The notes: generated by a model not told the origin, from the sequence alone. A stretch of DNA of 57,175 bases from Candidatus Cryptobacteroides fimicaballi (GCA_018065485.1 JAGHTF010000020.1:1-57175); one strand, 5' to 3'. Shown: positions 407 to 23,848, counted from the stretch's first letter. A program made the numbers and translations.

Positions 407-424
407 ACGATGGAGGAAAAGATC

Positions 425-2503: not shown

Positions 2504-2525
2504 AAAAATAATATTGAATCAGTAT

Positions 2526-5606: not shown

Positions 5607-7712
5607 ATGAATATGAAGAAATTTTATATAGCAATACTTATCTGCACGGCTCTGCTGAGTTCCTGCAAGAAAGATTTTCTTGACAAGACTCCTCTTGACA
5701 AATTGTCCGAGGAAGCTGTTTTCAACAGTGACGCCCTTGCCGAGAACTATGTCAATTCCCTGTACGTTGTATTGCCCGATCCTTTCCAGGAAGGCAATAT
5801 AAGTGCAATCACAGACGAAGGATTCTTCCGTTACGGAGGAACCTCGACACGTTACATCTTGTCCGGAACAATGACTCCCGACAATATCCTTCCCATCGCT
5901 GAAGGCGGTCAGGCCCACGATACCCGTACCACTACGCTCAACATATGGAATCGTACCTACGAATGGATCTATATGATGAACACCTTTATCAAGAAGGTTG
6001 AGGAAGGGACCAAGATGTCGGCTGATGCATCCAAGAGGCTGCTGGGCGAGGTGTATTTCCTTCGTGCCTGGTCTTATTACAACCTTATCCAGCGTTACGG
6101 CGGCGTGCCTATCATAACAAAAGTTTATACTCTTACCGACGAGTATGACGTTACCCGCGACAAGTTCGACGATTGTGTTGATTTCATTCTCTCGGACCTT
6201 GAAAAGGCCGAGGAGATGGTCCCGACAAAAGACAACTGCCTTCTGGGCCGCATCAACAAGGATATCGTGCTTGCCCTGCGCTGTCGTGTCACGATGCTGG
6301 CCGCGTCGGCATTTTTCAACGACCCTGCCTTCCCCGAGGGAGACATTATTCACGGAGCGTACGATTACAATGGAAAGTGGCAGCGGGCCTACGATGCCGC
6401 CAAGGCAATCGTGAATCGTGCCGACGTTGACGGAGCCTACGCCCTTTCCGAAACCTATGAGGGTATATGGAACAACATCTACTCGAAGGAGGTTATCTGG
6501 GGAAAGTTCTTCGTCTCAAACGCCGATGCCACCACCAATTACGCAAAGAAGGCGCAGCTGCTTTACTCAAATGTGTATTTTAACGGTTGGACATCGCTCA
6601 ATCCTACCCAGGCTTTCATTAAGGATGTGGAAATGCGCAACGGAAAAAAATTCTTTGAGGAAGGCTCCGGCTATGATCCCGAGCATCCTTTTGCCAACCG
6701 TGACCCGCGTCTTTACAAAATCGTCGGTTTCCCGTTCACTTATTATCAGAATACCGAAGCCGGAAAAACCAATGCCGAACTCCCTCACGGCTTCCTGTTC
6801 GGTCCTTCATACAAGGGCGATCCAGAAAAGGGCTATCCTTCATACAAGGAACTCAATGGTGTTGCAAAACAGGGTTATCCCGAAAATCAGCTGCAGATTT
6901 ACCTGCTGTTCGACGGTATGGACCGTTCGGATTTTGCCGAGGGAAAGAAATATCCCGACTATACCAAGAAGGCCGCACATCTCTGGGATGCTTCCAATCA
7001 TACAGGGTGTGAACTCAACAAGTGGTATATCCCAACTTCTCCCATTACCGAATCTGAGGTGGGCTCTCTGCTCTATCCCTGGTTCCGTCTTGGCGAAATG
7101 TACCTCAATCTTGCCGAATGCGCCTATATGCTGGGTGGCAGGGAAGAGGAGTGCCGCGAATACATTAACAAGGTCCGCCGTCGTCCCGACGTGATGATGC
7201 CCGACGTTACCGAGAGCGGTGAAAACCTCTGGGACCGTCTGGTGAACGAACGCCGCGTCGAGCTCTCTTTCGAATTCATACGCTACTTCGATCTTCGCAG
7301 ATGGAAGCTTGCCGAAAAGTACGAGAACGTTCCTCTTGCAGGAATGCTTCCTATGGTGCTTCAGAAAGGAAGCAAGCAGGATACTCTGTTCAGGGTTGTG
7401 CGCCTGTATGACGAAACTAAGAATCATACCAACTATTACTGGCCCAACACCGAAGCCAGCAAGACGTACACCTACGCTACTGTTACTCCGGCCGGAGACA
7501 GGGACGGCAGGCCTATCGAATATATCATAAAGGAAAAATGGCTTGGAAAGGAATATACCCTGGATTACGGAGACTGCCCTCTGAACATTTCTCCTACTCC
7601 AAAATATTTTCCCTTCCGCAGTGGAGTATATCCCAACTACCTTATGCCTATTCCCCGCTCGGAAATAACCAAGAGTCACGGACAGATAGAACAGAATCCA
7701 GGATATGAATAG
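5607..7712 (+). CDS. SusD/RagB-like lipoprotein, close paralog of the 425-2503 protein
   Basis: Lipobox LLSSCKKDFLDKTPLDKLSEEAVFNSD; near-identical blocks to the first SusD, including the C-terminus (KSHGQIEQNPGYE). Confidence 0.96.
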   Translation: MNMKKFYIAILICTALLSSCKKDFLDKTPLDKLSEEAVFNSDALAENYVNSLYVVLPDPFQEGNISAITDEGFFRYGGTSTRYILSGTMTPDNILPIAEGGQAHDTRTTTLNIWNRTYEWIYMMNTFIKKVEEGTKMSADASKRLLGEVYFLRAWSYYNLIQRYGGVPIITKVYTLTDEYDVTRDKFDDCVDFILSDLEKAEEMVPTKDNCLLGRINKDIVLALRCRVTMLAASAFFNDPAFPEGDIIHGAYDYNGKWQRAYDAAKAIVNRADVDGAYALSETYEGIWNNIYSKEVIWGKFFVSNADATTNYAKKAQLLYSNVYFNGWTSLNPTQAFIKDVEMRNGKKFFEEGSGYDPEHPFANRDPRLYKIVGFPFTYYQNTEAGKTNAELPHGFLFGPSYKGDPEKGYPSYKELNGVAKQGYPENQLQIYLLFDGMDRSDFAEGKKYPDYTKKAAHLWDASNHTGCELNKWYIPTSPITESEVGSLLYPWFRLGEMYLNLAECAYMLGGREEECREYINKVRRRPDVMMPDVTESGENLWDRLVNERRVELSFEFIRYFDLRRWKLAEKYENVPLAGMLPMVLQKGSKQDTLFRVVRLYDETKNHTNYYWPNTEASKTYTYATVTPAGDRDGRPIEYIIKEKWLGKEYTLDYGDCPLNISPTPKYFPFRSGVYPNYLMPIPRSEITKSHGQIEQNPGYE

Positions 7713-10700
7713 GATTTTCTCAATACTTGTCTGCTTAGGTGTGGCGCTGAATCTCGGCGCTGCACCCTTGCGCTTTAATTTCAGGTCGGCAGACATCACC
7801 CCTCTTGAGGAGGATCACACTATGCTTGCCGGTTTTGCCGCACGCAACGATCTTCACGACGGTGTGCACACTCCTCTGAAGGCAGGATGTTTTGTCTTTC
7901 TTGACAAGGGAACCGGCAGAAAGGTGTGCGTGGTATCCCTCGATATGATGGAACTTGCTCCAGTCCTTGCCGACGAACTGCGGGACAGCATTCAGGCCCG
8001 TACCGGAATAGGAAAGGACAATATCCTGCTTCACTGCATACATACTCACAGCGCTCCACGCGTTGGAGGACGCTGGATAGACGAGGGTGCTGCAAACAGG
8101 CCCTTCTACCTGAGATTTAAGGAATCTGTGCTCAATCTGGCCGTCTCTACGATAAATGATGAAGGCGGCTTCAGGAAGTTCAAAGTCGAGATAGGCAAAT
8201 GCTCGACTTCCATAAGCGGAAACCGTTGTGAAAAGGAAGGTCCGGTGGACCGTGACGTATATGCAGTGCGCTTCCTTGACAGGAAGGGAAAGCCTATATG
8301 CGCGTTTATCAATCTTGCCTGCCATCCCGTATGTATGGGCCCCCGCAGTTATCTGGCTGGAGCAGACTATTCCGGTGTAGCGCGAGGGATAATTTCGAAG
8401 AAATGGGGATGTGAAGTTTTCCAGTTCAGCGGAGCGCAAGGTAATCTTGATCCGGCCGAAGGTCCCAAGACATTCGAATATGCCGAGCAGTGCGGACGTT
8501 CGCTTTCCGACTCCCTTTCGACTATAGTCTTCACTCCTTTCGAAATGGACGGGACACTTGCCCTTTCGACGAACGTAACAAGGCTTCCGTTCAGGATTCC
8601 CGAGGTTACTGCAGCGGAGATACACAAGCTCGCACAGTCTCTGAAAAAGGAATATGCCACGTCTTTCCCCCGTTTCGCGGATGATGTGGACGGGTGGGAG
8701 AAGCAGATGGTCAATGAACTCGGTCCCGACGCCGTAATCAGGTCTCTGGACGTGAATATGACGGGGCTTAACATAGGCGGACTTGTCTTCGTTTTCAGTC
8801 AGGGAGAGGCGTTCTGCGAATATCAGACGGGTCTTAGAACTGCTTTTCCGGACAAGACGGTGATTTTTGCCGGCTATACCAACGGGCAAAGTGCATATAT
8901 CCCTTCTGAGCGAGCCTTCGAGGTGCGGAAGGGCTATGAATATGAACTCGAACAGGATTTCGTATATGTGAAGAGACCTTATCCTCTTTCCGAACAAATG
9001 CCACAGGCATTTCAGGAGGGTCTGGTAAAAACGGCCGCAATGGTTGCCGGAGCCCCTCGCTACGATATAATTCCCGCTCCGCTCAAACTGACCGCCAGCA
9101 GCGGAGAATTCAGTCTTGGGAAGAGGATGCGCGTTGCCGCCTCTCCCCAGTTCGTTGAGATTGCCGATGACTTCCGTGCCCGTATGGGCGAGGTAGGAGG
9201 TCTTCGCCTTAGAAGTTCGCGCCGCATATTCAGAAGGGGAGTGGAACTTGTCAAGGTAGACGGGCTTGCCCCCGAAGCATATCGCCTCAAGGTTACAAAG
9301 AGAAAGGTGACCGTAGAGGCGTCGGACTATGCCGGAGCATTCTACGCACTCCAGACTTTCTGCCAGATGCTTCCCGCCGAGGTGTATTCCGCATCCCGAG
9401 TCAGTGGTGTGGAGTGGACGGCTCCGTGCTGCGAGATCGAGGATTCCCCCCGGTTCGCATATAGGGGTATGCTCCTGGACTGCGGGCGTTATTTCTACCC
9501 TAAGGAAGAGGTGAAGAAGTTCATAGACCTGATGGCTATGCACAAGATGAATTACCTTCAGTGGCATCTGACCGAAGATCAGGGATGGCGGATAGAGATA
9601 AAGAAATTTCCCCGCCTTACCGAGGTGGGCGCCTACCGCAAGGAAACCTCGGGATACGACAACGTGGGGGATGGAAAGCCTCACGGAGGTTTCTATACCC
9701 AGGACGATGTTAGGGAGATTGTGGAATATGCGCGCCGCCGTGCGGTGACCATCATACCCGAGATAGAACTTCCCGGACATTCCTCTGCGGCCATTGCAGC
9801 CTATCCTGAACTTTCCTGCACACCCGACGAGCCCAAGGAGGTGGTAACTTCGTGGGGTGTCAAGGAAGATGTCTATTGCCCAAGGCCCGAGACCTTTGCG
9901 TTCCTCGAAGACGTGTTCTCCGAACTTTTCGACCTGTTCCCGTCTCCTTACTACCATTTTGGCGGTGACGAATGTCCAAAGACAGCCTGGCGGAACAGCG
10001 AATACTGCAAGAACTTTGCACGTGAGAAAGGACTCGACAGCGTCGATGATATACAGGATTATTTCGTGGCGCATTTCGACAACTTCCTGCGCCGGCACGG
10101 AAAGACCGTTATAGGTTGGGACGAGATACTTGACGGAAAGGCAACCGAATCGACGGTTGTAATGTCCTATCGTGGCCACAAACCGGCTTCCCGGGCTATG
10201 GAGAAAGGGATGAAGACGATTCTCTGTCCTAACCGCTGGTGCTATTTCGACTACCAGCAGCAGGAGATAGAGGACAAACCCTCGAATCAGCATCTTTTCA
10301 TTACGCTGCGCAAAGCCTACAACTGGAGCCTGGAGAGTATGATAGAGCCCGAGACCCTTGCAAAAGGCGGTGACGGCCTTCTGGGTCTGCAGGCCTGCGT
10401 ATGGGGCGAACATATCCCCGACGTTGCAAAACTCCAGCTTCAGACTTACCCGCGAGAGGCTGCAATAGCCGAGACTTCCTGGTCTGCGACAGACAACCGT
10501 GACTGGAACAATTTCAAGACGAGAATGCCCAAGGAACTTAAACGTATGGGATTTGCGGGTGTGGTATTCAGTGATGCCTTCAATAACGTGATAGTGAATA
10601 TGGACCTGGAATCGGACTATCCCAGGAGCGTCGAACTCGAAATAGACAACCTATGCGCGGTTATTCGTTACACGACCGACGGCAGCGAGCCCGGTGCCGG

Positions 10701-10812
10701 ATCGGAGGTTGTACCTTCCAGCATACGCGTCCAGAAGGGCGATACCATTAAGGCACGCGGTTTCCTCTGTGACGGAACTCCTGTCGGAGAAACAATGACT
10801 AGAACTTTCTAA
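7705..10812 (+). CDS. Fusion protein: neutral/alkaline ceramidase-like N-terminal domain + GH20 beta-N-acetylhexosaminidase
   Basis: N-terminal RSADITPLEEDHTMLAGFAARNDLHDGVHTPLKAG, HTHSAPR, NLACHPVCMG, GAQGNLDP (PF04734-like); C-terminal GH20b, RGMLLDCGRYF, WHLTEDQGWRIEIKKFP, HFGGDECPK (GH20 D-E pair). Start overlaps the upstream stop by 8 nt. Confidence 0.88.
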   Translation: MNRIFSILVCLGVALNLGAAPLRFNFRSADITPLEEDHTMLAGFAARNDLHDGVHTPLKAGCFVFLDKGTGRKVCVVSLDMMELAPVLADELRDSIQARTGIGKDNILLHCIHTHSAPRVGGRWIDEGAANRPFYLRFKESVLNLAVSTINDEGGFRKFKVEIGKCSTSISGNRCEKEGPVDRDVYAVRFLDRKGKPICAFINLACHPVCMGPRSYLAGADYSGVARGIISKKWGCEVFQFSGAQGNLDPAEGPKTFEYAEQCGRSLSDSLSTIVFTPFEMDGTLALSTNVTRLPFRIPEVTAAEIHKLAQSLKKEYATSFPRFADDVDGWEKQMVNELGPDAVIRSLDVNMTGLNIGGLVFVFSQGEAFCEYQTGLRTAFPDKTVIFAGYTNGQSAYIPSERAFEVRKGYEYELEQDFVYVKRPYPLSEQMPQAFQEGLVKTAAMVAGAPRYDIIPAPLKLTASSGEFSLGKRMRVAASPQFVEIADDFRARMGEVGGLRLRSSRRIFRRGVELVKVDGLAPEAYRLKVTKRKVTVEASDYAGAFYALQTFCQMLPAEVYSASRVSGVEWTAPCCEIEDSPRFAYRGMLLDCGRYFYPKEEVKKFIDLMAMHKMNYLQWHLTEDQGWRIEIKKFPRLTEVGAYRKETSGYDNVGDGKPHGGFYTQDDVREIVEYARRRAVTIIPEIELPGHSSAAIAAYPELSCTPDEPKEVVTSWGVKEDVYCPRPETFAFLEDVFSELFDLFPSPYYHFGGDECPKTAWRNSEYCKNFAREKGLDSVDDIQDYFVAHFDNFLRRHGKTVIGWDEILDGKATESTVVMSYRGHKPASRAMEKGMKTILCPNRWCYFDYQQQEIEDKPSNQHLFITLRKAYNWSLESMIEPETLAKGGDGLLGLQACVWGEHIPDVAKLQLQTYPREAAIAETSWSATDNRDWNNFKTRMPKELKRMGFAGVVFSDAFNNVIVNMDLESDYPRSVELEIDNLCAVIRYTTDGSEPGAGSEVVPSSIRVQKGDTIKARGFLCDGTPVGETMTRTF

Positions 10813-10813
10813 T

Positions 10814-12667
10814 ATGGCAAAACGTATCATCATATTGCTTTTTTCCGCCTTTGCGGTTCTGTCCTGTACGGTGAATGACGTAGACAGAACAGTTGGCGTA
10901 ATACCTCAGCCTCACCATATCAGTATGCCGGAAAAGGCTGGCAGCTTTGTCCTGGACAGGGACTGTGCCATCTTCCTTGACGAGCCTACCGAGGAAATGT
11001 ATCGGATAGCCGGATTCCTTAACGAAAAGCTCAAAAAGGCGGCCGGATTCACTCTTCCGGTGAAGGAAGTGAATCTGACCCCAAAGGCAAGGGGTATTTA
11101 TTTTATGAATGCCGGCAACCCTTCCGAGGCATACAATCTTCATATTATGCCGGATATGGCAGTGGTGGACTACGGAGACGGGGCAGGCGCCTTCTATGCG
11201 CTTCAGACAATGTTCCAGCTGCTGCCCAATCAGATATTCGCTTCCAGCGTGCAGAAAGGTGTAAAGTGGAATATGACCTGCTGTGACATCGAGGACAGCC
11301 CGCGTTTCAAGTATCGCGGCATGCACCTGGACGTATGCCTGCATTTCTTTGACATAGATTTCCTCAAGCGTTACATAGACCTTATGGCCCTGCACAAGGT
11401 CAACCGTTTCCACTGGCACCTTACCGAAGACCAGGGCTGGAGGCTGGAAATCAAGAAATACCCTCTTCTTACCCAGAAGGGGCAGTGGCGCAAGGAAACC
11501 GTGATCGGCTCCCTCAAATCCGGTATATATGACGGCAAGCCCCATGGTGGCTACTATTCTCAGGAGCAGGTCAGGGAGTTAGTAAAATACGCGGCAGAGC
11601 GCTATGTGACCATTATTCCCGAAATTGAACTTCCCGGGCACGCCCTTGCTGCAATAGCCTGTTACCCCGAGCTTAGTTGCGGCCTTGACAGTACGTATGA
11701 GGTGGCCACGAAATGGGGAGTGTTCAAACAGGTTTATTGTCCCAAGGAAGAGACCTTCAAATTCCTCGAAGACGTGTTCGACGAGGTGTTCGAACTCTTC
11801 CCCTCCAAACTGGTTCACATAGGCGGAGACGAATGCCCCAAGGCAAGCTGGAAGAAATGCCCGCATTGCCAGGCTCTTATAAGGAAACTCGGGTTGAAGG
11901 ACGAATTTGAACTCCAGAGCTGGTTTGTGACAAGAATGGAGAAATACATCAATTCCAAGGGTCGCGAGATCATAGGCTGGGACGAAATCCTCCAGGGCGG
12001 ACTTGCTCCCAATGCCAAAGTTATGAGCTGGTTGGGAGAGGAAGGCGGAATCAAGGCGGCCCAGCAGCATCACGAAGTGGTTATGTCTCCTCATTACCGG
12101 TATTACCTGGATTATTGGCAGGCCGACCCCGACAGTGAGCCCCTTGCTATGGGAGGGCCCACCACGCTCCGCACAATGTACGACTACAACCCTGTCCCCG
12201 AGGTGCTTACCGACGAGGAAGCCCGCTATGTAATTGGCGTGGAAGGTTGCGTATGGACTGAATATATGCCCACTCCTGCAAGAGTGGAATATATGGCCTG
12301 GCCCCGTATGTGCGCCATTGCCGAAAGCGGATGGACAAAGGCCGGCAAGGACTGGGACGGTTTTGCCTCAAGGCTCGAAAACCATCTCGTAAGGTTGGAT
12401 GAACTGGGCGTGGGATACTGCGATGCGTTCTTCAATCCCTATATCGAATTCCATAAAGATACACAATACGACAAAGTGGTTACAATAAGCGTGGATGCTC
12501 CCGGAGCCGAAATACATTATACTCTGGATGGCAGCCTGCCCACTGCAGATTCCCCTCTGTATACCGGGCCTTTTGTTGTAAACAGGCAGCAGAAGGTAAC
12601 TGCCATTGCAGTGCGAAACGGAAGACAAATCGGAAAAACTAAGTATAAAACTTTTTTAATTAACTAA
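10814..12667 (+). CDS. GH20 beta-N-acetylhexosaminidase lipoprotein with C-terminal chitobiase-type beta-sandwich
   Basis: Lipobox FAVLSC; RYRGMHLDVCLHFFDIDFLKRYIDLMALHKVNRFHWHLTEDQGWRLEIKKYP; HIGGDECPKASW; C-terminal YTLDGSLPTADSPLYTGPF. Confidence 0.93.
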   Translation: MAKRIIILLFSAFAVLSCTVNDVDRTVGVIPQPHHISMPEKAGSFVLDRDCAIFLDEPTEEMYRIAGFLNEKLKKAAGFTLPVKEVNLTPKARGIYFMNAGNPSEAYNLHIMPDMAVVDYGDGAGAFYALQTMFQLLPNQIFASSVQKGVKWNMTCCDIEDSPRFKYRGMHLDVCLHFFDIDFLKRYIDLMALHKVNRFHWHLTEDQGWRLEIKKYPLLTQKGQWRKETVIGSLKSGIYDGKPHGGYYSQEQVRELVKYAAERYVTIIPEIELPGHALAAIACYPELSCGLDSTYEVATKWGVFKQVYCPKEETFKFLEDVFDEVFELFPSKLVHIGGDECPKASWKKCPHCQALIRKLGLKDEFELQSWFVTRMEKYINSKGREIIGWDEILQGGLAPNAKVMSWLGEEGGIKAAQQHHEVVMSPHYRYYLDYWQADPDSEPLAMGGPTTLRTMYDYNPVPEVLTDEEARYVIGVEGCVWTEYMPTPARVEYMAWPRMCAIAESGWTKAGKDWDGFASRLENHLVRLDELGVGYCDAFFNPYIEFHKDTQYDKVVTISVDAPGAEIHYTLDGSLPTADSPLYTGPFVVNRQQKVTAIAVRNGRQIGKTKYKTFLIN

Positions 12668-12672
12668 TCATT

Positions 12673-13503
12673 ATGGCATTAAGATTAACTGAACAGCCGT
12701 CATTGTATGACAATCTGGAGAAGAAGAGTGTGGCTGAGCTGTTGCACGACATCAATCAGGAAGACCAGAAAGTGGCTTTGGCCATTCAGAAGGTTCTGCC
12801 CGATATCGAAAAACTTGTCAGTGCAATAGAGGCCCACGTTCGTGAGGGTGGACGTTTGTTCTACCTCGGGTGCGGAACCGGTGGAAAGCTTGCAGTGCTG
12901 GATACGCTGGAAATTCCCAACACCTATGGCGTAAGCCCCGAGATGGTACAGTGCGTTCTGGCAGGTGGAGTCGAGAATCTTGTTCAGGACATCGAGGAAG
13001 CCGAAGACTGGCTCGACGAAGGTTGGGAAACCCTTGAGAAGAAACATCACGTTACCCCTAAGGATATCGTGGTTGGCATCTCGGCCAGCGGCACCACTCC
13101 CTATGTCCTTGCATCTCTCAAGGCTTGCCGGGAACACGGAATCCCTACCGGATCGTTCGTGAACAATCCCGATTCTCCCATTTCACAGTATTCCGACTAT
13201 CCTGTCGAGATTCTCACCGGTCCCGAATTCATTACCGGCAGTACCCGTATGAAGTCCGGCACTTCGCAGAAAATGCTCTGCGATATGATAAGCACTACGC
13301 TAATGTGCAGGTTGGGCCGCGTAGAAGGCAACAGGATGGTGTGTGCGCATCTTATCAACAATAAGGTCGTTGACCGTCTCACCCGAACCCTTATGGACCG
13401 CAACGGCATTGCCGACTACGCCCTCGTTGAGGCTGAAATCAAGGCTTGCGGCGGCCTTAAGGAAGCGGAGGACTCCCTTCGTAGGAAAGGTTTTATCAAA
13501 TAA
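12673..13503 (+). CDS. MurQ-like SIS-domain protein (divergent N-acetylmuramic acid 6-phosphate etherase paralog)
   Basis: LFYLGCGTGGKLAVLDTLEIPNTYG, DIVVGISASGTTPYVLASL, GPEFITGSTRMKSGTSQKM; aligned by eye to the canonical MurQ at 40235, with several motif substitutions. Confidence 0.85.
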   Translation: MALRLTEQPSLYDNLEKKSVAELLHDINQEDQKVALAIQKVLPDIEKLVSAIEAHVREGGRLFYLGCGTGGKLAVLDTLEIPNTYGVSPEMVQCVLAGGVENLVQDIEEAEDWLDEGWETLEKKHHVTPKDIVVGISASGTTPYVLASLKACREHGIPTGSFVNNPDSPISQYSDYPVEILTGPEFITGSTRMKSGTSQKMLCDMISTTLMCRLGRVEGNRMVCAHLINNKVVDRLTRTLMDRNGIADYALVEAEIKACGGLKEAEDSLRRKGFIK

Positions 13504-13540: not shown

Positions 13541-16500
13541 ATGAAAAAGATCTTTAATTATCTCGTTTCTTTCCTTGCAATCTCACTTGCACTGGTAGCT
13601 TGTAAGAAAGAAGAACCCACTCCCGATCCTACTCCGGTAGGTGGCGGATTCAAAATCAATGAGGTGGTTGCTGCAGCGTCAGAAGCCTACTCTACCTGGG
13701 AGGATGCAAGGGAAATCCCTGCTTCTTTCACTGTAGCGGGCAAGACTCTCAGCGCTTCCGATTTCTTCTTCGTTGAGGCTACTGCTCTCGTTGAAATAAG
13801 CGAAGGCAGCCAGGCCGAAATTGCAGTGGTTCCCTACAAGGCTGCAGCATCTCCCGACAAGGACAGCTACGATGCAACCGAAATTGCAGTTACCAACGGT
13901 CCCAAGGATGGCAAAGGCGTAGCCGAGGATATCGTTACCGTTGCCAAGACCTTCCTTGCCGATGCAGCTGCAAAGGGCCAGTGGCAGAACCGTGTTCTGG
14001 TTTACAGAGGTGACGACGCTCTTGCTTTCTGTACCAACCGTGCCATTGTTACCGTTATGCGCGCGCTTGCTGCATATGCCGAGTCTGCAAAGCTTCCCGC
14101 TACAGTCAGCACGGAATACCTTTCCGCTTCCAATACCCTGAAGGCATTTGCCCAGGAGTTCGTGAAGTATCTCGACATCTGGGATGCAACGATAGCCGAC
14201 AAGCTCAGCGCCGACGGCGATCACTGCTCGGCAAACAACAATGCCTGGGAAAGAGTGCATTTCATTCCCATCCCTTACGACACCGACAATGACTACCACA
14301 ATGAGGGCAAGGACCAGTATGACTTCGCAAAATACGGCAACCCTCAGAACATCGAGGTCAATGGTGAAACCTACACTGCCGCAAATTGCTGGGAAATCGC
14401 CATCCGCGGTCTTATGGATATGTGTACTACCGACGGTCAGGCCTTTATGAACACAATGGACCGCAACACTCCCATCAACTATGGCGACGGTCTTTCACTT
14501 ATGTCCGCTCCCATCAGCAAACCTTCCGAGACCTGTATCTGGGGTAAGTATCCATGGTATGAGAAGGAAGGTGACGGCGGTTTCATCAAGTACAATGAAG
14601 CGCCTATTACAGAGATGAACGTTGACCTCCTGCTCAAGGCCTGCTCTTGGCACGTTACCAGGAGTTTCATCAAGAACAACTTCAACGACCCTCTCGGAAT
14701 GATCGGTAACTTCCAGCAGTTCGGAACATCTGCATCAACCCTCAATGTGGAAGGTTACGAAGGACTTATCAGCCCTATGCGTGAGTTCCTCATTATGGCC
14801 CGTATCTACAAGTACCTGCTCGACAACAACATCAACAAGAACGTTTATACTGCCATCAAGGACGTGAAGTTCGACGTTGACCTTTACAACCAGGAGCTGC
14901 CCGTAAACGTGAAGACCAAATCTCTCAAGTTCGAAGCAACTCCCGAAGGACCTCTTACAATCGAACTCACCGCTACCGAGAACTGGACGGCAACCTGTGA
15001 TGCCGAATGGCTGTCTCTCGACAAGACATCAGGCGCCGCCGGTGATGCAAAAGTTACTGTAACCGCTCAGAACAATACCGGCGAGGCCCGTACAGCCACT
15101 ATCACTTTCGCGGCCGGCGATTACACCAAAGACGTAGCTGTAATTCAGACCGAGTATATCGCTCCTATCACTGGTACTCTTAAGGAATTTGCACAGGAAT
15201 TCGTAAAGGCTCTCGATGAATGGAACAGCCACGTAGGACGCGTTGATGCCGACGGAGCACATAATCTCGCTACGGGATGGCAGAACGCTCACTTTGTTCC
15301 CATCGAGCACCCCAATGCAACCGGCAAGGATACCTATGTAGGTGAAGGCTTCGAAGGGAACCAGTATGATGAGACCCTTTTCGACCATACTTTCACAGTC
15401 AATGTCAATGGACAGGTTTATACTTCGGCTCAGGCTTGGGATATTGCTATCCGCGGTTTGATGGATCTTGTAACTGCAGAAGGCTCTGCAGAACTTGAAA
15501 ACTTCACCGACAGCCGTAACCACGCAATGACTTTTGCCGACGGTGCTTCGCTTCTCGAAACTATGCCTACACCGACAGCCGGCTGTGCCTGGGGTAAATA
15601 TCCCTGGTATGAGCAGGACAATCAAATGACAAATAACGGTCAGCCCGTAACCGAGGTAGGCGTTGACTTTATGGTAAAGGCTTGCTCCTGGCATCTTATC
15701 AGAGCATTCATCAAGATTCCCGGAGTGAACGGTTCTCCTCTCGGAATGATAGGCAACTATCAGGAGTTCGGTACGAACCCCGATTCACAGCTCGTTCTGG
15801 ACAACTATGCAGGTTATATCGCTCCTATGCGTGAGTTCCTTATCCTTGCACGTTTCTACAAGTATCTGCTCGACAACAATATCACAGAGAACGTTTACAC
15901 GGCTGTCAAGGATCAGAAGTTCGATTATGACCTTTACAACCAGGGCGCTGTTCCCGTAAAAGAGACCACTATCAAGGATTTTGCAACTGAGTATGTGAAA
16001 CTTCTTGATGTATGGGAAAAGACAACCGGCAAGATAAATACAATTACCGGATTCGATACCGCCAGCTCGAATTATGATCCTGCCAATGACGTTATCGGCC
16101 ACTATATCCCCGAGGATACCAAGATTACCGTAGGCAAGAAGGAGTATAATCTCGCTGACGTATACGAACTCGCCGAGCGCAGTTATCTCCTTGTCCGCGG
16201 ATATGACGGAAACGACGTCAATCCCGACCACGTAGGAGCCGGCAAGATTGACAAGCTCGACAAGAGTGTGAATATGTCCGAGACCGCAATTCCCGCAACT
16301 CACGACTATCAGTGGGCATCTCTGCGTTACAATGAGTCTGCCGGCAATGGCGGCAACTTCCAGAAGAAAGACGGCTCTGCCGTTGCTTCTCTCGCAGTTC
16401 TTGACAACAATGCCAACAGAAGCATCAACTGGCCGCTCAACCCCAGCAAGGGCAATGGTCTGATTTCCAACAACTGCGGTTACAACAGTGACCAGGTTCC

Positions 16501-17410
16501 CGGTTTCAAGGGCTGTTTCAGCGCTGTACGCGCTATGCTTACCTATGCCGAGTTCTTCAAGTATATGCTTGACAACAACCTCGACACAGCCGGAGAACTC
16601 AGTGCCGATACAGAGGTTCCCACCCGTCTTTTCGGTGAGACCAAGCCCGTACCTGCCGCAGCAACTCTCAAAGACTTCGCAGAGGCTTATGTAAGCTGCC
16701 TCGACGTTTGGAAGAGCACAGTTGGTATGGTTGAGGCCGACGGTACACACTGTGTAGGAAAGGGCACTCAGTTCGAGAACGTTCATCTTGTTCCTATCGC
16801 CAATCCCAACAAGGGTTACACTACCGAAGGCAACCAGTACGACGACACTCTCTATCCTGTAAAATGGACTGTAAAGGTGGGTGAAACCGAGTACACTTCT
16901 GCCCAGGCCTGGGAAATCGCCATCCGTGGTCTTATGGAACTCTGTACTACCGAAGGAGAAGCTTTCCTTGCCGGTATGACAGACAGGAATATGGCCTATA
17001 CCCTTGCAAACGGCAAAGCTCTTTCCACTACAGTTCCTGATTATACCGACGTTTGCGAATGGGGTGCTTATCCCTGGTATGAGCAGGATGCCGACAACAA
17101 ACCTGTCACATTCAACGATGCAGAAATAGACAAAGTAGGCATCGACTTCATTCTCAAATGCGGCAGCTGGTTCGTGGTACGCGGCCTTATCACCAATTCG
17201 GGCAACACCCGTCTGGGCAAGATAGGCAACTATCAGGAATTCGGCACGAAATCAAGTACGCTCATTCTCGATGGCTATAAAGGCTTTATCAGCCCTATGA
17301 GAGTTATGTTGCTTACCGCACGTGTTTACAAATACCTGCTCGACAACAACATTACCGAAAACGCCTACGATGCGCTTAAGGACGTGAAGGTTGATTTCGA
17401 CCTCTATTAA
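13541..17410 (+). CDS. Large surface lipoprotein: N-terminal PMBR-like segment, four ~250-aa repeats, one BACON domain
   Basis: Lipobox ISLALVACKKEEPTP; repeat openings TLKAFAQEFVKYLDIW / TLKEFAQEFVKALDEW / TIKDFATEYVKLLDVW / TLKDFAEAYVSCLDVW and closings YKYLLDNNI...YTAIKDVKFDVDLY. Confidence 0.9.
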   Translation: MKKIFNYLVSFLAISLALVACKKEEPTPDPTPVGGGFKINEVVAAASEAYSTWEDAREIPASFTVAGKTLSASDFFFVEATALVEISEGSQAEIAVVPYKAAASPDKDSYDATEIAVTNGPKDGKGVAEDIVTVAKTFLADAAAKGQWQNRVLVYRGDDALAFCTNRAIVTVMRALAAYAESAKLPATVSTEYLSASNTLKAFAQEFVKYLDIWDATIADKLSADGDHCSANNNAWERVHFIPIPYDTDNDYHNEGKDQYDFAKYGNPQNIEVNGETYTAANCWEIAIRGLMDMCTTDGQAFMNTMDRNTPINYGDGLSLMSAPISKPSETCIWGKYPWYEKEGDGGFIKYNEAPITEMNVDLLLKACSWHVTRSFIKNNFNDPLGMIGNFQQFGTSASTLNVEGYEGLISPMREFLIMARIYKYLLDNNINKNVYTAIKDVKFDVDLYNQELPVNVKTKSLKFEATPEGPLTIELTATENWTATCDAEWLSLDKTSGAAGDAKVTVTAQNNTGEARTATITFAAGDYTKDVAVIQTEYIAPITGTLKEFAQEFVKALDEWNSHVGRVDADGAHNLATGWQNAHFVPIEHPNATGKDTYVGEGFEGNQYDETLFDHTFTVNVNGQVYTSAQAWDIAIRGLMDLVTAEGSAELENFTDSRNHAMTFADGASLLETMPTPTAGCAWGKYPWYEQDNQMTNNGQPVTEVGVDFMVKACSWHLIRAFIKIPGVNGSPLGMIGNYQEFGTNPDSQLVLDNYAGYIAPMREFLILARFYKYLLDNNITENVYTAVKDQKFDYDLYNQGAVPVKETTIKDFATEYVKLLDVWEKTTGKINTITGFDTASSNYDPANDVIGHYIPEDTKITVGKKEYNLADVYELAERSYLLVRGYDGNDVNPDHVGAGKIDKLDKSVNMSETAIPATHDYQWASLRYNESAGNGGNFQKKDGSAVASLAVLDNNANRSINWPLNPSKGNGLISNNCGYNSDQVPGFKGCFSAVRAMLTYAEFFKYMLDNNLDTAGELSADTEVPTRLFGETKPVPAAATLKDFAEAYVSCLDVWKSTVGMVEADGTHCVGKGTQFENVHLVPIANPNKGYTTEGNQYDDTLYPVKWTVKVGETEYTSAQAWEIAIRGLMELCTTEGEAFLAGMTDRNMAYTLANGKALSTTVPDYTDVCEWGAYPWYEQDADNKPVTFNDAEIDKVGIDFILKCGSWFVVRGLITNSGNTRLGKIGNYQEFGTKSSTLILDGYKGFISPMRVMLLTARVYKYLLDNNITENAYDALKDVKVDFDLY
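13655..13798 (+). other. Pseudomurein-binding-repeat (PMBR)-like segment
   Basis: INEVVAAASEAYSTWEDAREIPASFTVAGKTLSASDFFFVEATALVEI matches my recollection of the PMBR pattern (A..v..yi..n..lP..v.v.gk..s...Fl.l...a...i); not HMM-verified. Confidence 0.5.
14134..14896 (+). repeat. Protein repeat unit 1 of the 1289-aa lipoprotein
   Basis: TLKAFAQEFVKYLDIW ... WEIAIRGLMDMCTTDGQAF ... CIWGKYPWYE ... YTAIKDVKFDVDLYNQE. Confidence 0.85.
14920..15166 (+). other. BACON domain
   Basis: ENWTATCDAEWLSLDKTSGAAGDAKVTVTAQNNTGEARTATITFAAGDYTKDVAVIQ is a textbook BACON pattern. Confidence 0.85.
15176..15946 (+). repeat. Protein repeat unit 2
   Basis: TLKEFAQEFVKALDEWNSHVG ... WDIAIRGLMDLVTAEG ... CAWGKYPWYEQD ... 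YTAVKDQKFDYDLYNQG. Confidence 0.85.
15965..16660 (+). repeat. Protein repeat unit 3 (most divergent)
   Basis: TIKDFATEYVKLLDVWEKTTG ... TVGKKEYNLADVYELAERSYLLV ... YAEFFKYMLDNNL; lacks the CxWGxYPWYE block. Confidence 0.75.
16663..17407 (+). repeat. Protein repeat unit 4
   Basis: TLKDFAEAYVSCLDVWKSTVG ... WEIAIRGLMELCTTEG ... CEWGAYPWYEQD ... YDALKDVKVDFDLY*. Confidence 0.85.
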
Positions 17411-17470: not shown

Positions 17471-18499
17471 ATGAAAAAGGCATTGTCCGTTATTTCAGCC
17501 GCTTTTGCCGTGATTCTTTTCTTGTCGTGCGGCAAAGCCACTCCGGACCCCAAACCGGAAGAGCCCCAACCTCAGCCTCAGAAGATTGACTGGCGCGAAA
17601 CCTACAACGGCGACCTGCTGTTGGCCCTTTCGGGAGCGTATGCAAAATGGCAGGAAACTAATACTATACCCACAACCATAAAGTGGGACGGTTTCACCGT
17701 ATTCAATGTGGAGTATCTGCGAGCCGGAATTACCCTGTTGCTGAAAATAATAGACAATCCAAATACCTGGGCAGACGAAAACCTTACCTATCCTTCGGCC
17801 GCTTGTTCCATATCTTCACGCAAGGGAGAGCCGTTTCTGCCCAGGGAAATCAAATTCGGCGAGTTTACCTCCGTGCTAAGGAGCGTGTACGCCTCTATGA
17901 CCGGGGGAAAATCGATACCCAATGCAATTGAGGTATCCTCCTACGAAAACAAGATGACAACATCGGCTCTTCTTAAAGCGATATTGGAAGCGGCCGCGTG
18001 TTACGATGCGCACGAATCCCTGCCCGAAACCGTAGATGTCTGGGAATCGTCCTACATCGCTCCCACGGCTCATTGCGAAGTCAATGCCGCCGAGGTTAAA
18101 ACTGCCCGCGACGCCGCATTCGCCAAATACAACGTAACCGACAAATCGACCGTACGCGAGAAGGCGACTGCCATTTTCGAGTATGCCCGTACCGAGTGGA
18201 CCTGGGAAGACTACAACAACACCAAAAAGGGTGCGGTTGGCACAATCAAGGCCAAGAGCGGCAATTGCTGTGACCTTTCTAATGCGATATGCGCTATGGC
18301 ACGCCTCAGCGGCATTCCCGCCCGTTATTTCCACGCCCAGTGCAAATATTCGAGCGGTTACATAGGACACGTCATTTCCCAACTTTTTGTTGACGGAAAA
18401 TGGGAATTCGCCGATGCCTCCAACGACAGCAACTCCTTTGGCACGGTTGTCTTTACCGACTACACCGGACTGCATTATTACGAAGAACTGGAATTTTAA
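17471..18499 (+). CDS. Lipoprotein with PMBR-like segments and C-terminal transglutaminase-fold cysteine protease domain (pseudomurein endoisopeptidase-like)
   Basis: Lipobox VILFLSCGK; LALSGAYAKWQETNTIPTTIKWDGFTVFNVEYLRAGITLLLKI; YNNTKKGAVGTIKAKSGNCCDLSNAICAMARLSGIPARYFHAQCKYSSGYIGHVISQLFVDGKWEFADASNDSNSFG = Cys/His/Asp transglutaminase-like triad. Confidence 0.85.
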   Translation: MKKALSVISAAFAVILFLSCGKATPDPKPEEPQPQPQKIDWRETYNGDLLLALSGAYAKWQETNTIPTTIKWDGFTVFNVEYLRAGITLLLKIIDNPNTWADENLTYPSAACSISSRKGEPFLPREIKFGEFTSVLRSVYASMTGGKSIPNAIEVSSYENKMTTSALLKAILEAAACYDAHESLPETVDVWESSYIAPTAHCEVNAAEVKTARDAAFAKYNVTDKSTVREKATAIFEYARTEWTWEDYNNTKKGAVGTIKAKSGNCCDLSNAICAMARLSGIPARYFHAQCKYSSGYIGHVISQLFVDGKWEFADASNDSNSFGTVVFTDYTGLHYYEELEF

Positions 18500-18512: not shown

Positions 18513-20648
18513 ATGAAAATTATCTTTAAAGCATTTGCGGCGGCTGCACTGCTTTCGGCATTGTTCTCCTGCCGTGGAAAAGAAACCCCTAAACCGGATC
18601 CCGTGCCCGATCCCGTATCTATGGACGGTATCATTATCAATGAGATTATGCCCTCAAGAGCAATAGGCAGGGAAGGCTGGATTGAGCTCTACAATACAAC
18701 CGACAAATCTATCCCCCTGCAGGGAATGGTGCTGTTGCTTACCTCCGATTCAGCGGCAGAAGAACCTGTGTGTACCTTGAAGACAGGAACCATAGAGCCT
18801 AAGGGACGCTTCCTCATAAAGACCGGAGAAGTGCAATTCTCTACCCTTATGCTGCGCGCTACGTTCCAGGAACTGTCCATCCTCGATTCCCAGGGCTTCA
18901 CCCTCGACTCTTTCTCGGTAAGAATCGACTGCGGCCCCAATGCCAAGTTGGATGGCGACGAGGACAGTTTCGCCCGAATCCCCGACGCCTCCAAGACCTG
19001 GAAGGTAACCGAAACCTCTACCCCGGGCGAGAAAAACTACAAGGTTACACCCTATGCCATTTCGGGATTGGTAATCAACGAAGTGTGCCCGGCAGAAGGT
19101 TGGGTCGAGATTTACAATGCCGGAAAGAAGGAGATGAAACTGGAATACTCCTACATAAAGGCCAAGGATGGCACCCGTATCTGTTTCCTGCCCGAGGAAA
19201 CGGTTCTTCCCGTAGGAGAGAGACTCGCAATCGACTGTTCGGCAAGTGCCGCACAGATGTCGGAATTTACATACTATACCAATGACCATAAGCAGGTTAC
19301 GACATTCTCCAGCTCCAAATTACCGGCTATAACCGACGGTTCCAGCTGGTCCCGCTTGCCCGACATCACAGGCGATTTCCAACTTACATCGGTACCCACT
19401 AAAGGCCAGCCCAACAAGGCCGTAACCACCGATGAATCGGGTCTCAAGCTCAACGAATTCTCGCTTGCCGGGTGGGGAGAGATAAGCAATTCTTCGCTCT
19501 TCGAAGTGAAGACCCCGGGTATCACCGTTACAATTGACGGTAAAACTGTCTTTGAAAGCGGCAGTACAACCATTCCGTCCGGCGGCCATTTGAGTTTCAG
19601 CGCCAATATCACTGCCTCTTCTAAAGTAGTCCTCAAGGGTTCCGACGGAAAGGAACTCGACAGTTTCACCGCTTCCCTCGTACACGGCAGCCGCGAAGCC
19701 ACCCAGACTACAAGCTGGAGCCGTATCCCCGACAGCAATGGCCCCTGGTACACCGTTATAAACAGCAGCAGGGACGAAAAGAACTGGGGCATAACCGAAG
19801 ACAACAAGGTAGCCATCTGGGTCAACCATTCATCTATGGACTCGTATGAATTCGAAAAGATGGCAAAACTCGGAGTAGGCAATATCGTAATCCACGAGTT
19901 CATCTTCCGCAGCGACTATCACAAGAAAGCCGAGGTAGAGGCTTTCCTCGACAAGGCTCATTCCCTTGGTATGAAAGTACACATCTGGCAGCAGTGCTTC
20001 TGGTGGTCAGGAGACGTCCACTGGCCGGATGGCACTGTGACCGAGGGCGATTGGGTATCGGCCATCATTGACGGAACGCCAGCCAAAGTCAACCAGCCCA
20101 GGTTCGACGAAATCATCAAAAGGTCTTTGAACTATGTCAATTATGATATAGACGGAATTCATTACGATTATGTGCGTTTCGGCGGAACCGCCTACAAGCA
20201 CGGCGATGAAAACCTTACCGGTACAATGGCCATCACAGAGTTCTGCCGTCAGGCTGAGTCTAAGATTCACGCCAAGAATCCGGGAATCATAATGTCGGCG
20301 GCTCTTATGGGCGAAAGCGGCGCACAGAAATATTACGGTCAGGACCCCGAGCAGATGACCCGTTACATAGACATTCTTATGCCTATGGCTTATATTTCTT
20401 CTTACAACTACAGTTCCACAAAGAACGTTTCGGTGGCCAACTGGTTCGCCGACGGAGCGCACAAGAACGGTAAGGAGTGCTGGCACGGTTTCTCTACCTA
20501 CGATGCAAACAGCCAGGGTCTCAGCGCTGACAGACTCGATGCCGACATTGTAAACGTCGTAGACAATTCAAGGGCCGACGGCGTTGCCCTCTTCCGCTAT
20601 GGCATAGGGCAGTATCCCGATATGAACGGTTATTACAGAGCAGAATAA
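18513..20648 (+). CDS. GHL10/DUF187-like glycosidase with N-terminal lamin-tail-like domains
   Basis: Lipobox ALFSCRGK; IIINEIMPSRAIGREGWIELYNTTDKSIPL and GLVINEVCPAEGWVEIYNAGKKEMKL (LTD-like); C-terminal DIDGIHYDYVRFGGTAYKH, ILMPMAYIS. Confidence 0.85.
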   Translation: MKIIFKAFAAAALLSALFSCRGKETPKPDPVPDPVSMDGIIINEIMPSRAIGREGWIELYNTTDKSIPLQGMVLLLTSDSAAEEPVCTLKTGTIEPKGRFLIKTGEVQFSTLMLRATFQELSILDSQGFTLDSFSVRIDCGPNAKLDGDEDSFARIPDASKTWKVTETSTPGEKNYKVTPYAISGLVINEVCPAEGWVEIYNAGKKEMKLEYSYIKAKDGTRICFLPEETVLPVGERLAIDCSASAAQMSEFTYYTNDHKQVTTFSSSKLPAITDGSSWSRLPDITGDFQLTSVPTKGQPNKAVTTDESGLKLNEFSLAGWGEISNSSLFEVKTPGITVTIDGKTVFESGSTTIPSGGHLSFSANITASSKVVLKGSDGKELDSFTASLVHGSREATQTTSWSRIPDSNGPWYTVINSSRDEKNWGITEDNKVAIWVNHSSMDSYEFEKMAKLGVGNIVIHEFIFRSDYHKKAEVEAFLDKAHSLGMKVHIWQQCFWWSGDVHWPDGTVTEGDWVSAIIDGTPAKVNQPRFDEIIKRSLNYVNYDIDGIHYDYVRFGGTAYKHGDENLTGTMAITEFCRQAESKIHAKNPGIIMSAALMGESGAQKYYGQDPEQMTRYIDILMPMAYISSYNYSSTKNVSVANWFADGAHKNGKECWHGFSTYDANSQGLSADRLDADIVNVVDNSRADGVALFRYGIGQYPDMNGYYRAE

Positions 20649-20654
20649 GTCTAT

Positions 20655-22094
20655 ATGAAAAGATATATAATAATAGTTGCGCTTGCGCTTGCCGCTCTTG
20701 TATCCTGCGGCAGGAAGGAAACATCCGGGGAACTTCCTATGTTCTGGACCTGGATGGAAGACAGGGAAGGGTTGGACCTCGATTCCCTGTTCGTACAAAT
20801 GGATGAGGCCGGAATGGACGGACTTATGCTTTTTGTCCCCGACACTGAAAGATATCAGAAGGCCGCCGCACTGGCAAAGGAGCACGGAGTTACCCTCTAC
20901 GCCTGGATATGGATCCTCAATCCCAGAGGAGACCGCAAGCAATTGCTCGAAACCCATCCCGAATGGTTCGACGTAAACCGGGGCGGTAAGTCTCTTGCCG
21001 ACTACAAGGCATACGTTAACTCTTACAAGTTCCTGAGCGCCGCGTTGCCCGAGGTGCGGGAGTATGTAAAGGAAACGGTAAAGAGAGTTTGCGAAATCGA
21101 AGGTATAGACGGTATCTGCCTCGACTATTGCCGCATAGTGGACTGCGTCCTTCCCATCAGCCTGGCCTATAATTATAACCTCCGCCAGGACACCGAGGTT
21201 TATCCCGACTGGGATTTCGGTTATCATCCGGCAGCAATAGAGCGGTTTGTGGCGGAATACGGCTATGACCCCCGCGAACTCGAGGACCCTTCACGCGATC
21301 CCAGGTGGTGCGGGTTCCGTTGCGACTTGGTTGCCGAGGTCGCCAATATTGCAGCCGAGGTTGCCCACAGCTATGGGAAGAAGGTCTGCGCTTCGCCTTT
21401 CGCTACCGTAAAGCTGGCCTCTTTTATGGTGAGCCAGGACTTCTCAAAGTGGAACCTCGACTTTGTATTCCCTATGGAATATTCCGACTTCTACTCAATG
21501 GAACCGGGTTTCGTATATGACGCCACTGTCCAGAACAACCGCGACAAGGGCCCCGGAACCGAGCTTTACGTTGGCCTTGGCGCCGAACTCGGCAGCGGTC
21601 TTCCGGCGCTCATTGAAAATATGGATGCCGCCTTCCGCGGTGGAGCCCAGGGCATTAGCCTTTATACTGTTGCCGGGCTTGAAACCCCGGAAGACAGGGC
21701 CGGATTCAAGGCCTATGCCGACAGCCTCCGCAAAGTTCGCGCTCAGAATGGGGGAGTGATGCCTGCCCTTGAGCCTGTAGGCTATGCCCCTGCATCGGGT
21801 ACCAGCCTCAACCCGTTCGCGCACACTCGCCTTATGGCGGTGGTAGAACGCAATATGCAGCGCCTCATAGCGGGAGACCCCATTCACGTAAAGAGTGTGA
21901 ACGGTATGGTTCCCGACGACCCGGCCAAAGAATATCCGGCACTTGAACTTTCGGAATACACTCAGACTCTGGCCACCGACAGGCTTCTCAAATATCGTGT
22001 TACCGACAAAGCCAGCAACATTTGCTTTGACGTTCTTTTCCCCGTTTACGGTGGATTGATTTCGGGCTGGGACGTACGTGTCGTTGAGCAATAA
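20655..22094 (+). CDS. GHL10/DUF187-like TIM-barrel glycosidase lipoprotein
   Basis: Lipobox ALVSCGRK; YAWIWILNPRGDRKQLLETHPEWFDVNRGGKSL; IEGIDGICLDYCRI; FVFPMEYSDFY. Confidence 0.75.
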   Translation: MKRYIIIVALALAALVSCGRKETSGELPMFWTWMEDREGLDLDSLFVQMDEAGMDGLMLFVPDTERYQKAAALAKEHGVTLYAWIWILNPRGDRKQLLETHPEWFDVNRGGKSLADYKAYVNSYKFLSAALPEVREYVKETVKRVCEIEGIDGICLDYCRIVDCVLPISLAYNYNLRQDTEVYPDWDFGYHPAAIERFVAEYGYDPRELEDPSRDPRWCGFRCDLVAEVANIAAEVAHSYGKKVCASPFATVKLASFMVSQDFSKWNLDFVFPMEYSDFYSMEPGFVYDATVQNNRDKGPGTELYVGLGAELGSGLPALIENMDAAFRGGAQGISLYTVAGLETPEDRAGFKAYADSLRKVRAQNGGVMPALEPVGYAPASGTSLNPFAHTRLMAVVERNMQRLIAGDPIHVKSVNGMVPDDPAKEYPALELSEYTQTLATDRLLKYRVTDKASNICFDVLFPVYGGLISGWDVRVVEQ

Positions 22095-22109
22095 TCAAAT
22101 TATACGAAT

Positions 22110-22988
22110 ATGCGCAAAATATTACTTACAACGGTTCTGCTGCTCTCGGTACTGACCCTGAGTGCAAAGACTCCGAAGAACACCAATGCCATCTGGGCCT
22201 GGTCTTCCCATATGGACAAGATAGACCTTCAGGAACTTAAAGACAAAGGTATAGGAAACATTATCCTGCACGACAAGAGCTTTACAAATCACGGCGAAGA
22301 AGCTACGATGGCCTTCATAAAGGCCGCAAAGAAGAAGGGAATACTGGTTCACGCGTGGGTGCAGGTTTCTTACTGCGGCGGCAAATGGATGAGCCTGGTC
22401 GATGACGAGCACAACTGCTACCGTCAGGACCGCTTCGATGAGGTAATCGACCTTTGCAAGCATTATATGGACCTTGGAGTGGAGGCTATCCATTTCGACT
22501 ACATCCGCTTTGGCGGTACTGCCCACAAGCACAATCCTTCACCTGAGGTTACCGGCACGGGGGCAATCACCGAATTCTGCCGTCAGGCCAACGCCGCCCT
22601 CAAGGGAAATAACCCCAAGGTCATTCTTTCGGCCGCGCTTATGCCCGAACCCGACAGTGAGTACTATTACGGCCAGGATCCGGCGCAGATGGGACAGTAT
22701 CTCGACATTCTCATGCCTATGATTTACCGGCATTCACCCGCTTACGCCAGAGGCGGAGAGGGCTGGGCCCCTATGGTAGCCCGTCATTTTGTAGAGAAGG
22801 GCAAGCCCGCACAGGTATGGGCAGGTACCACTACCTACACCGGTGACGACGACAGCGTCAAACCTATGGATGCACCCTCCATAATGGCCGACTGCGAAAC
22901 CTTCAAAGGCACCGGCGTAACCGGCATCGTTTTCTTCCGCTTCGACCTTGGCGAGATTCCCGATATGAAGAAATTCAAACTGAACTAA
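22110..22988 (+). CDS. GHL10/DUF187-like glycosidase, single catalytic domain
   Basis: GVEAIHFDYIRFGGTAHKHNPSPEVTGTGAITEFCRQANAALKGNNPKVILSAALMPEPDSEYYYGQDPAQMGQYLDILMPMIY, strongly similar to the 18513 protein C-terminus. Confidence 0.85.
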   Translation: MRKILLTTVLLLSVLTLSAKTPKNTNAIWAWSSHMDKIDLQELKDKGIGNIILHDKSFTNHGEEATMAFIKAAKKKGILVHAWVQVSYCGGKWMSLVDDEHNCYRQDRFDEVIDLCKHYMDLGVEAIHFDYIRFGGTAHKHNPSPEVTGTGAITEFCRQANAALKGNNPKVILSAALMPEPDSEYYYGQDPAQMGQYLDILMPMIYRHSPAYARGGEGWAPMVARHFVEKGKPAQVWAGTTTYTGDDDSVKPMDAPSIMADCETFKGTGVTGIVFFRFDLGEIPDMKKFKLN

Positions 22989-22990
22989 AT

Positions 22991-23848
22991 ATGATACTGA
23001 TAGCAGACAGCGGTGCAAGCAAGACCGATTGGGCTTGCGTGTCAAGAATAAATAGTACCTGTATTCGTTTTACGAGTCAAGGTTATAACCCCAATTATAT
23101 TACCGGTCCTCAGATTGTAGAGGATATAAAGGCAAACCTGCCTACAGAGTTGGATCCGGCATCGGTCGATGAGATTTATTTCTATGGTGCCGGTGTAACC
23201 GAACTGCAGTATCCCTTTATGACGGACACGCTGAAGCAGGTGTTCAACAGGGCAGAGAAGGTGTTCATTGCAATGGACACCCTCGCATCCTGCCGTGCCC
23301 TGCTTCAGACGGAGCCCGGTTTTGCAGCTATATTGGGGACAGGGGCAAACTCCTGTCTCTACGACGGCTGCAACGAAGGCTTTAACGTCGATTCCTGCGG
23401 CTTCATACTGGGAGACGAAGGCAGCGGCGCCAACCTGGGAAAGAGGTTGATTACCGACTACATCCGCCGCAATATGCCCGAAAAAGTATATGACTTGGTT
23501 GGGAAGGAACTCGGACACAATAATGACGAGTTGCTCGACATTATCTATACCAAGCCCTTCCCCAACAGGTTCTGCGCCCAATACGCGAAATTCATAAATG
23601 AAAATCTGAACTTCGACCCCTATTTCCCCAATTTGGTAACCGATGCTTTCCAGAAATTCTTCGACCTTATTGTGACACATTATCCCAACTACTGGAAATA
23701 CAGTTTTAACGCAGTAGGCTCTGTGGCTTATCATTTCAAGCCGCTGCTCCAGCCCGTTGTGGAGGCTTATGGAATGACAATGGGCAATATTCTCAAAGCT
23801 CCGATGGAGGGGCTAATCAGGTATCACCTCGAAAATCCCGAAGTATGA
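22991..23848 (+). CDS. BadF/BadG/BcrA/BcrD-type ATPase, N-acetylglucosamine-kinase-like
   Basis: MILIADSGASKTDWACV (phosphate-1), GTGANSCLYDG, GFILGDEGSGANLGKRL; paralog of the 39376 ORF. Confidence 0.9.
   Translation: MILIADSGASKTDWACVSRINSTCIRFTSQGYNPNYITGPQIVEDIKANLPTELDPASVDEIYFYGAGVTELQYPFMTDTLKQVFNRAEKVFIAMDTLASCRALLQTEPGFAAILGTGANSCLYDGCNEGFNVDSCGFILGDEGSGANLGKRLITDYIRRNMPEKVYDLVGKELGHNNDELLDIIYTKPFPNRFCAQYAKFINENLNFDPYFPNLVTDAFQKFFDLIVTHYPNYWKYSFNAVGSVAYHFKPLLQPVVEAYGMTMGNILKAPMEGLIRYHLENPEV

Follow-up and report, generated by a model that had tools for sequence, protein, structure and literature searches.

Pseudomurein-binding repeats (PMBR, PF09373) occur in PeiW, PeiP and PeiR; their deletion abolishes binding by PeiW, and MTH719 needs at least three of them (PMC2989375). 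In Bacteroidota, polysaccharide utilization loci (PULs) encode surface glycan-binding proteins (SGBPs) of the SusE/SusF type, including BACON-bearing ones, and Tannerella forsythia uses N-acetylmuramic acid (MurNAc) by means of MurT, MurK and MurQ (PMC5790795, PMC10465942). Here we analyze the gene of a putative tandem-repeat lipoprotein in a 57,175-nucleotide stretch of DNA, the window, from Candidatus Cryptobacteroides fimicaballi (GCA_018065485.1 JAGHTF010000020.1:1-57175), whose source genome is 1.33 Mb and 77% complete. Its product, encoded next to a Pei-like peptidase in a PUL-type locus, probably holds cell-wall material during digestion by the cell.

At its N terminus the repeat lipoprotein has a domain that resembles the PMBR of PeiW, PeiP and PeiR in predicted fold and profile, in its tandem helix-hairpin-helix composition and in its link to a C71-like peptidase. 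However, the repeat protein scores under the Pfam model, its units span 180-250 aa with large insertions, and it is a Bacteroidales lipoprotein with no catalytic domain. The neighboring peptidase is a nearly full-length homolog of C71 endoisopeptidases (the nearest being AXN53416 of Drs3), with a PMBR-like part and the C-H-D residues, yet it is a PUL lipoprotein and matches Transglut_core, not Pfam C71. As in SusE/SusF-type SGBPs, the repeat protein has a lipoprotein-like start, several domains including BACON, and SusC/SusD and glycoside hydrolase (GH) neighbors; in contrast to these proteins, its binding modules would be PMBR-derived rather than Ig- or CBM-type, and its cargo is probably a wall polymer. 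Finally, kinase and MurQ homologs are shared with T. forsythia MurNAc use, to which the window locus adds SusC/SusD, GH20, a Pei-like peptidase and the repeat lipoprotein.

A repeat lipoprotein with a PMBR-like N-terminal domain

The original prediction, made from the sequence by itself, described a giant surface lipoprotein with a PMBR-like N terminus, four units of ~250 aa and an embedded BACON domain, directly preceding a Pei-like protease. As a whole this description holds. The open reading frame (ORF) is uninterrupted and encodes, in order, a signal peptide, the PMBR-like domain, unit 1, BACON and units 2-4 (Table 1). The lipoprotein-like start, MKKIFNYLVSFLAISLALVAC with C21, was read directly from the sequence. 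"Giant" is an overstatement for 1289 aa, and relatives reach 1733 aa. Self-alignment shows that the repetition is real: units 1, 2 and 4 are 47-53% identical in pairs (BLASTP E 1e-81 to 1e-88). Unit 3, by contrast, is only 224 aa long, shares 23-26% identity with the others (E 1e-5 to 1e-12) and lacks the CxWGxYPWYE anchor and most of GNYQEFGT, so the four equal units become three strong ones plus one diverged.

The N-terminal domain consists of two helix-hairpin-helix motifs followed by a last "LP" strand. Profile comparison (hhalign) matches it to the PMBR region of a protein of the Methanobacterium virus Drs3 (E 5.7e-7, probability 92) and to the N-terminal part of the neighboring peptidase (E 8e-21). 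Its AlphaFold2 model is confident (predicted local distance difference test, pLDDT, 93.3), and a Foldseek search with this model against 350,542 chains of the PDB returned PeiP, PeiR and PeiR-C90A as the top three (best E 5e-3, probability 0.96). The domain does not reach the gathering cut-off of Pfam PMBR, only 2 of 30 members giving any match (best E 0.14), and a search of 100 genomes of the family with that model found nothing over cut-off, with only sub-threshold noise, which control genomes showed too. Such low scores are compatible with PMBR function, since PeiR functions with two very divergent PMBR that are also under the Pfam threshold (PMC6189367). From its profile and predicted fold, we therefore call this domain a divergent PMBR.

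The repeat units as remote PMBR relatives

A scan of the window protein against Pfam and NCBIfam recognized BACON but none of the units, and individual scans of 49 diverse units revealed no recurring family. No characterized unrelated domain thus emerged in these databases, and by these scans the units are a domain family undescribed in databases, as had been suspected.

The suggestion that each unit opening could be an expanded PMBR-like fold draws support from profiles. Compared with the peptidase family, unit profiles hit its PMBR-like part at E values of 3e-12 to 4e-13, against 0.09 for its catalytic part, and reversed and match-column-shuffled controls gave 0.026 at best in 100 shuffles. 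A column-shuffled control at E 1.8e-19 was traced to 16 columns of end gaps, an artefact; when shuffling was confined to match columns, no control went beyond the 0.026 above. The AlphaFold2 model of unit 1 is also confident (pLDDT 94.1, predicted template modeling score 0.93) and displays helix, hairpin, helix twice, with insertions. On this profile evidence, which runs in a chain through the peptidase family, we regard the units as remote and enlarged PMBR relatives.

The adjacent peptidase and its viral relatives

The gene adjoining downstream encodes, as had been noted, a Pei-like protease, here identified as a transglutaminase-fold peptidase. A PMBR-like N-terminal part (~aa 46-190) precedes Transglut_core (aa 218-315), and the C-H-D residues (C266/C267, H300, D315) are invariant in 23 of 23 relatives. 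Among 50,697 phage records the peptidase matched only two methanogen viruses, one of them Drs3, to whose "pseudomurein-binding repeat protein" (AXN53416) it is 35% identical (tblastn E 2e-21). With hhalign the match extends over nearly the full length, including PMBR and catalytic parts (E 1.2e-39). The Drs3 protein itself has three Pfam PMBR; the Pfam model detects PMBR in 12 of the 23 peptidase relatives (best E 1.7e-6) and finds no match in the window copy. None of the 23 members matches the Pfam C71 model PF12386, for which Drs3 scores 20.7, under the 22-bit cut-off.

Further relatives of the catalytic domain are present on IMG/VR contigs. In a tree of this domain the Bacteroidales and virus copies form separate groups, on branches so long that the direction of any transfer is not readable. 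One viral protein, vir080, has a transglutaminase core with no visible PMBR. On another virus contig (L113:2701-3462) a Pei-like peptidase has, in place of PMBR, an N terminus resembling a peptidoglycan-binding domain of the PG_binding_1 type, which suggests that binding modules have been swapped on the Pei-like catalytic domain.

A conserved locus for amino-sugar catabolism

The repeat gene belongs to a gene set with a recurring order: SusC/SusD, a (ceramidase-like) GH20, GH20, MurQ, the repeat lipoprotein, the Pei-like peptidase, DUF4015, kinase and major facilitator superfamily (MFS) transporter. Counting loci with enough flank, the peptidase, identified by its catalytic domain, lies within 6 kb downstream of the repeat gene in 36 of 39 (within 400 nt in 32), the kinase follows in 34 of 37, and MurQ lies within 4 kb upstream in 36 of 41. 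The window MurQ aligns over almost its whole length with solved MurQ enzymes in the PDB (E 5.6e-54), and the kinase also matches PDB 8ow9, deposited as "Putative novel MurNAc kinase" (E 9.7e-51). As judged from these homologies, the locus is a catabolic gene set for MurNAc/N-acetylglucosamine (GlcNAc) material. Repeat proteins with the N-terminal domain are almost always inside it.

Proposed function and ligand

Because PeiW and MTH719 require PMBR for binding, a protein with a PMBR-type N terminus and several PMBR-derived units is expected to be a multivalent binder of wall polymer. We consider it rather likely that the repeat lipoprotein serves the foraging locus as a surface binder of a peptidoglycan-type polymer, with murein the likeliest, a ligand favored by MurQ and the MurK/NagK-like kinase in the locus. 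The original prediction of a wall- or glycan-binding surface protein is thereby partly supported: as is characteristic of an SGBP, the protein is encoded together with SusC/SusD and GHs, and binding itself would follow from its kinship. The notion of a scaffold found no evidence.

In the mechanism that we propose, the protein would be anchored as a lipoprotein on the surface of the outer membrane. Each unit would be an enlarged two-motif relative of PMBR, with BACON as a spacer. One molecule could then make about eleven weak PMBR-type contacts (3 + 4x2), and many weak contacts would provide avidity for a repetitive polymer. The Pei-like cysteine peptidase would cut wall peptides of the polymer thus held, the DUF4015/GHL10-like and GH20 enzymes would trim its glycan, and SusC/SusD would import the resulting pieces. 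The MFS transporter, MurK/NagK-like kinase and MurQ would convert the amino sugars to GlcNAc-6-phosphate.

Several observations weigh against this proposal. None of the 49 units reached the Pfam PMBR model, and direct comparison with Drs3, the sole true PMBR protein compared, gave no match (probability 0.8), so the link from units to PMBR runs only via the peptidase and N-terminal families. Foldseek with the confident unit model, a check that had been suggested, found no match at E<=0.001 in the PDB or among BFVD viral models (PeiP, at rank 2 in BFVD with E 3.9, though suggestive, was not significant and was not used as evidence). In the literature consulted we found no report of PMBR binding murein, and since tested PMBR domains bind pseudomurein, a murein ligand implies a change in specificity.

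Pseudomurein stays in play because peptidase and binder share Pei/PMBR ancestry. With the same architecture, Bacteroidales might be attacking or scavenging methanogen walls by means of a Pei-type enzyme and binders derived from PMBR, which we judge unlikely, though not negligibly so. This would fit the PMBR-type fold of the N-terminal domain, the confinement of phage-record matches to methanogen viruses, the additional catalytic-domain relatives on IMG/VR contigs, and the origin of most carriers in the rumen or omasum, where the pseudomurein-walled Methanobrevibacter is dominant (PMC13289728). However, no enzyme for talosaminuronic acid was recognized, and MurQ, present in most loci, acts on a bond that pseudomurein does not contain, namely the lactyl ether in MurNAc-6-phosphate. 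We hold only a modest expectation that rumen Bacteroidales possess a dedicated methanogen-wall-feeding locus, whose Pei-type peptidase and PMBR-derived surface binders of several units would share ancestry with methanogen-virus lytic proteins.

Two other possibilities appear more remote. General GlcNAc catabolism would account for the GH20 enzymes, NagP-like transporter and NagK-like kinase, so that the locus might target chitin, mucin or host glycans with recruited PMBR-like modules; this is improbable, since MurQ and a wall-peptidase homolog with an intact C-H-D triad would be superfluous for chitin or mucin. It is equally hard to favor a cell-cell or particle adhesin in place of a nutrient-capture SGBP. 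Some unit-bearing proteins do lie outside the locus, some of them with other N termini or with Big_2 or other C-terminal modules, as might suit adhesion, but copies with the N-terminal domain almost always reside in the catabolic locus, and there are fusions of units with enzyme-like domains.

In the open-licence literature searched, no pseudomurein-type binding modules or Pei-type peptidases are described in a Bacteroidota PUL, though an earlier description elsewhere is possible. If murein is handled, the locus would define a peptidoglycan-foraging system for rumen Bacteroidales, together with a new wall-binding domain family. If pseudomurein is, rumen bacteria would consume methanogen walls, with a bearing on methane formation, and the locus would be a source of mesophilic lytic enzymes. 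With either ligand, the polymer bound by PMBR-type folds outside archaea becomes testable.

Features of the window

Table 1. Coordinates of the repeat lipoprotein, its neighbors and unit-DUF4015 fusions in related loci
Feature	Position	Strand	Evidence or remark
Repeat lipoprotein gene	13541..17410	+	1289 aa; ORF, translation, self-alignment
Lipoprotein-type signal peptide, ...ALVAC (C21), then KKEE	13541..13603	+	read by eye from sequence
PMBR-like N-terminal domain, aa 24-198	13610..14134	+	hhalign, AlphaFold2, Foldseek
Repeat unit 1, aa 199-449	14135..14887	+	self-alignment, AlphaFold2 model
BACON domain, aa 481-536, between units 1 and 2	14981..15148	+	Pfam PF13004 E 2.5e-12
Repeat unit 2, aa 546-799	15176..15937	+	self-alignment
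Repeat unit 3, aa 810-1033, degenerate	15968..16639	+	self-alignment
Repeat unit 4, aa 1042-1289	16664..17407	+	self-alignment
Pei-like lipoprotein peptidase	17471..18499	+	Pfam Transglut_core E 3.4e-15, tblastn, hhalign
SusD	410-2503	+	Pfam/NCBIfam
SusC	2514-5594	+	Pfam/NCBIfam
SusD, second	5607-7712	+	Pfam/NCBIfam
Neutral-ceramidase-like domain fused to GH20	7705..10812	+	domain scan
GH20 beta-hexosaminidase	10814..12667	+	Pfam E 7.5e-122
MurQ-like N-acetylmuramic acid 6-phosphate etherase	12673..13503	+	NCBIfam NF003915 E 1.2e-86, above cut-off
LTD+DUF4015 gene, glycosidase-like	starts 18513 (block 18513..22988)	+	
GHL10-like gene, glycosidase-like	starts 20655 (block 18513..22988)	+	sub-threshold match
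DUF4015 gene, glycosidase-like	starts 22110 (block 18513..22988)	+	
MurK/NagK-like amino-sugar kinase	22991..23848	+	PDB 1zbs E 2.5e-58
GlcNAc-type MFS transporter, NagP-like	23845..25047	+	NCBIfam NF046060 E 6.8e-82, below equivalog cut-off
Unit-DUF4015 fusions	L026:9624-11888, L041:15916-18168, L063:17740-19974, L072:10669-12921, L088:668-3043, L069:3250-6195		

Relatives of the ceramidase-GH20 gene keep the fusion (~1000 aa) or are split in two genes (~446 and ~600 aa). Opposite this gene lies an antisense ORF (7735-10413, - strand, 892 aa), probably a shadow ORF. A C45/AAT (acyl-transferase/amidase) family gene at 26763-27812 also belongs to the window locus and has relatives at the same place in other loci; possible substrates of its product are wall peptides or acyl groups.

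Distribution and variation of the repeat proteins

A single-unit query over 296 genomes of the order returned the source genome only and was too narrow, so a profile was used for relatives. The repeat was found in 7 of 250 genomes of the family, and across 85,488 species genomes the search yielded 65 loci, nearly all in Bacteroidales metagenome-assembled genomes from the animal gut, mostly of ruminants (rumen, omasum), in addition to the genome of Alistipes sp. An66, a cultured chicken isolate. The latter has a compact locus (L075) with SusC/SusD, MurQ, the repeat lipoprotein, Pei-like peptidase, DUF4015, kinase and MFS transporter. A unit query gave no matches in phage, plasmid and IMG/VR sequences.

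Relatives with the N-terminal domain have one to five units each, mostly three or four, and in nearly all of them an insert of ~95-102 aa, BACON where tested, separates units 1 and 2. Unit 1 is closest to unit 1 of other species in 45 of 49 cases (66% identity between the window and locus L052), and unit 2 to unit 2 in 38 of 48; later units have mixed best matches across species. This suggests that the two leading positions are ancient and that turnover affects the distal ones. In six relatives one or two units are fused to a C-terminal DUF4015 glycosidase-like domain, 40-57% identical to that of the gene starting at 22110 in the window, an arrangement that, by analogy, is usual for binding modules. 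Extra C-terminal modules of ~220-475 aa follow the last unit in some relatives. These include GLUG-like glycine-rich repeats (L034:6932-12130, L072:1728-6035) and other stretches (L046:7703-12082, L081:8453-12046).

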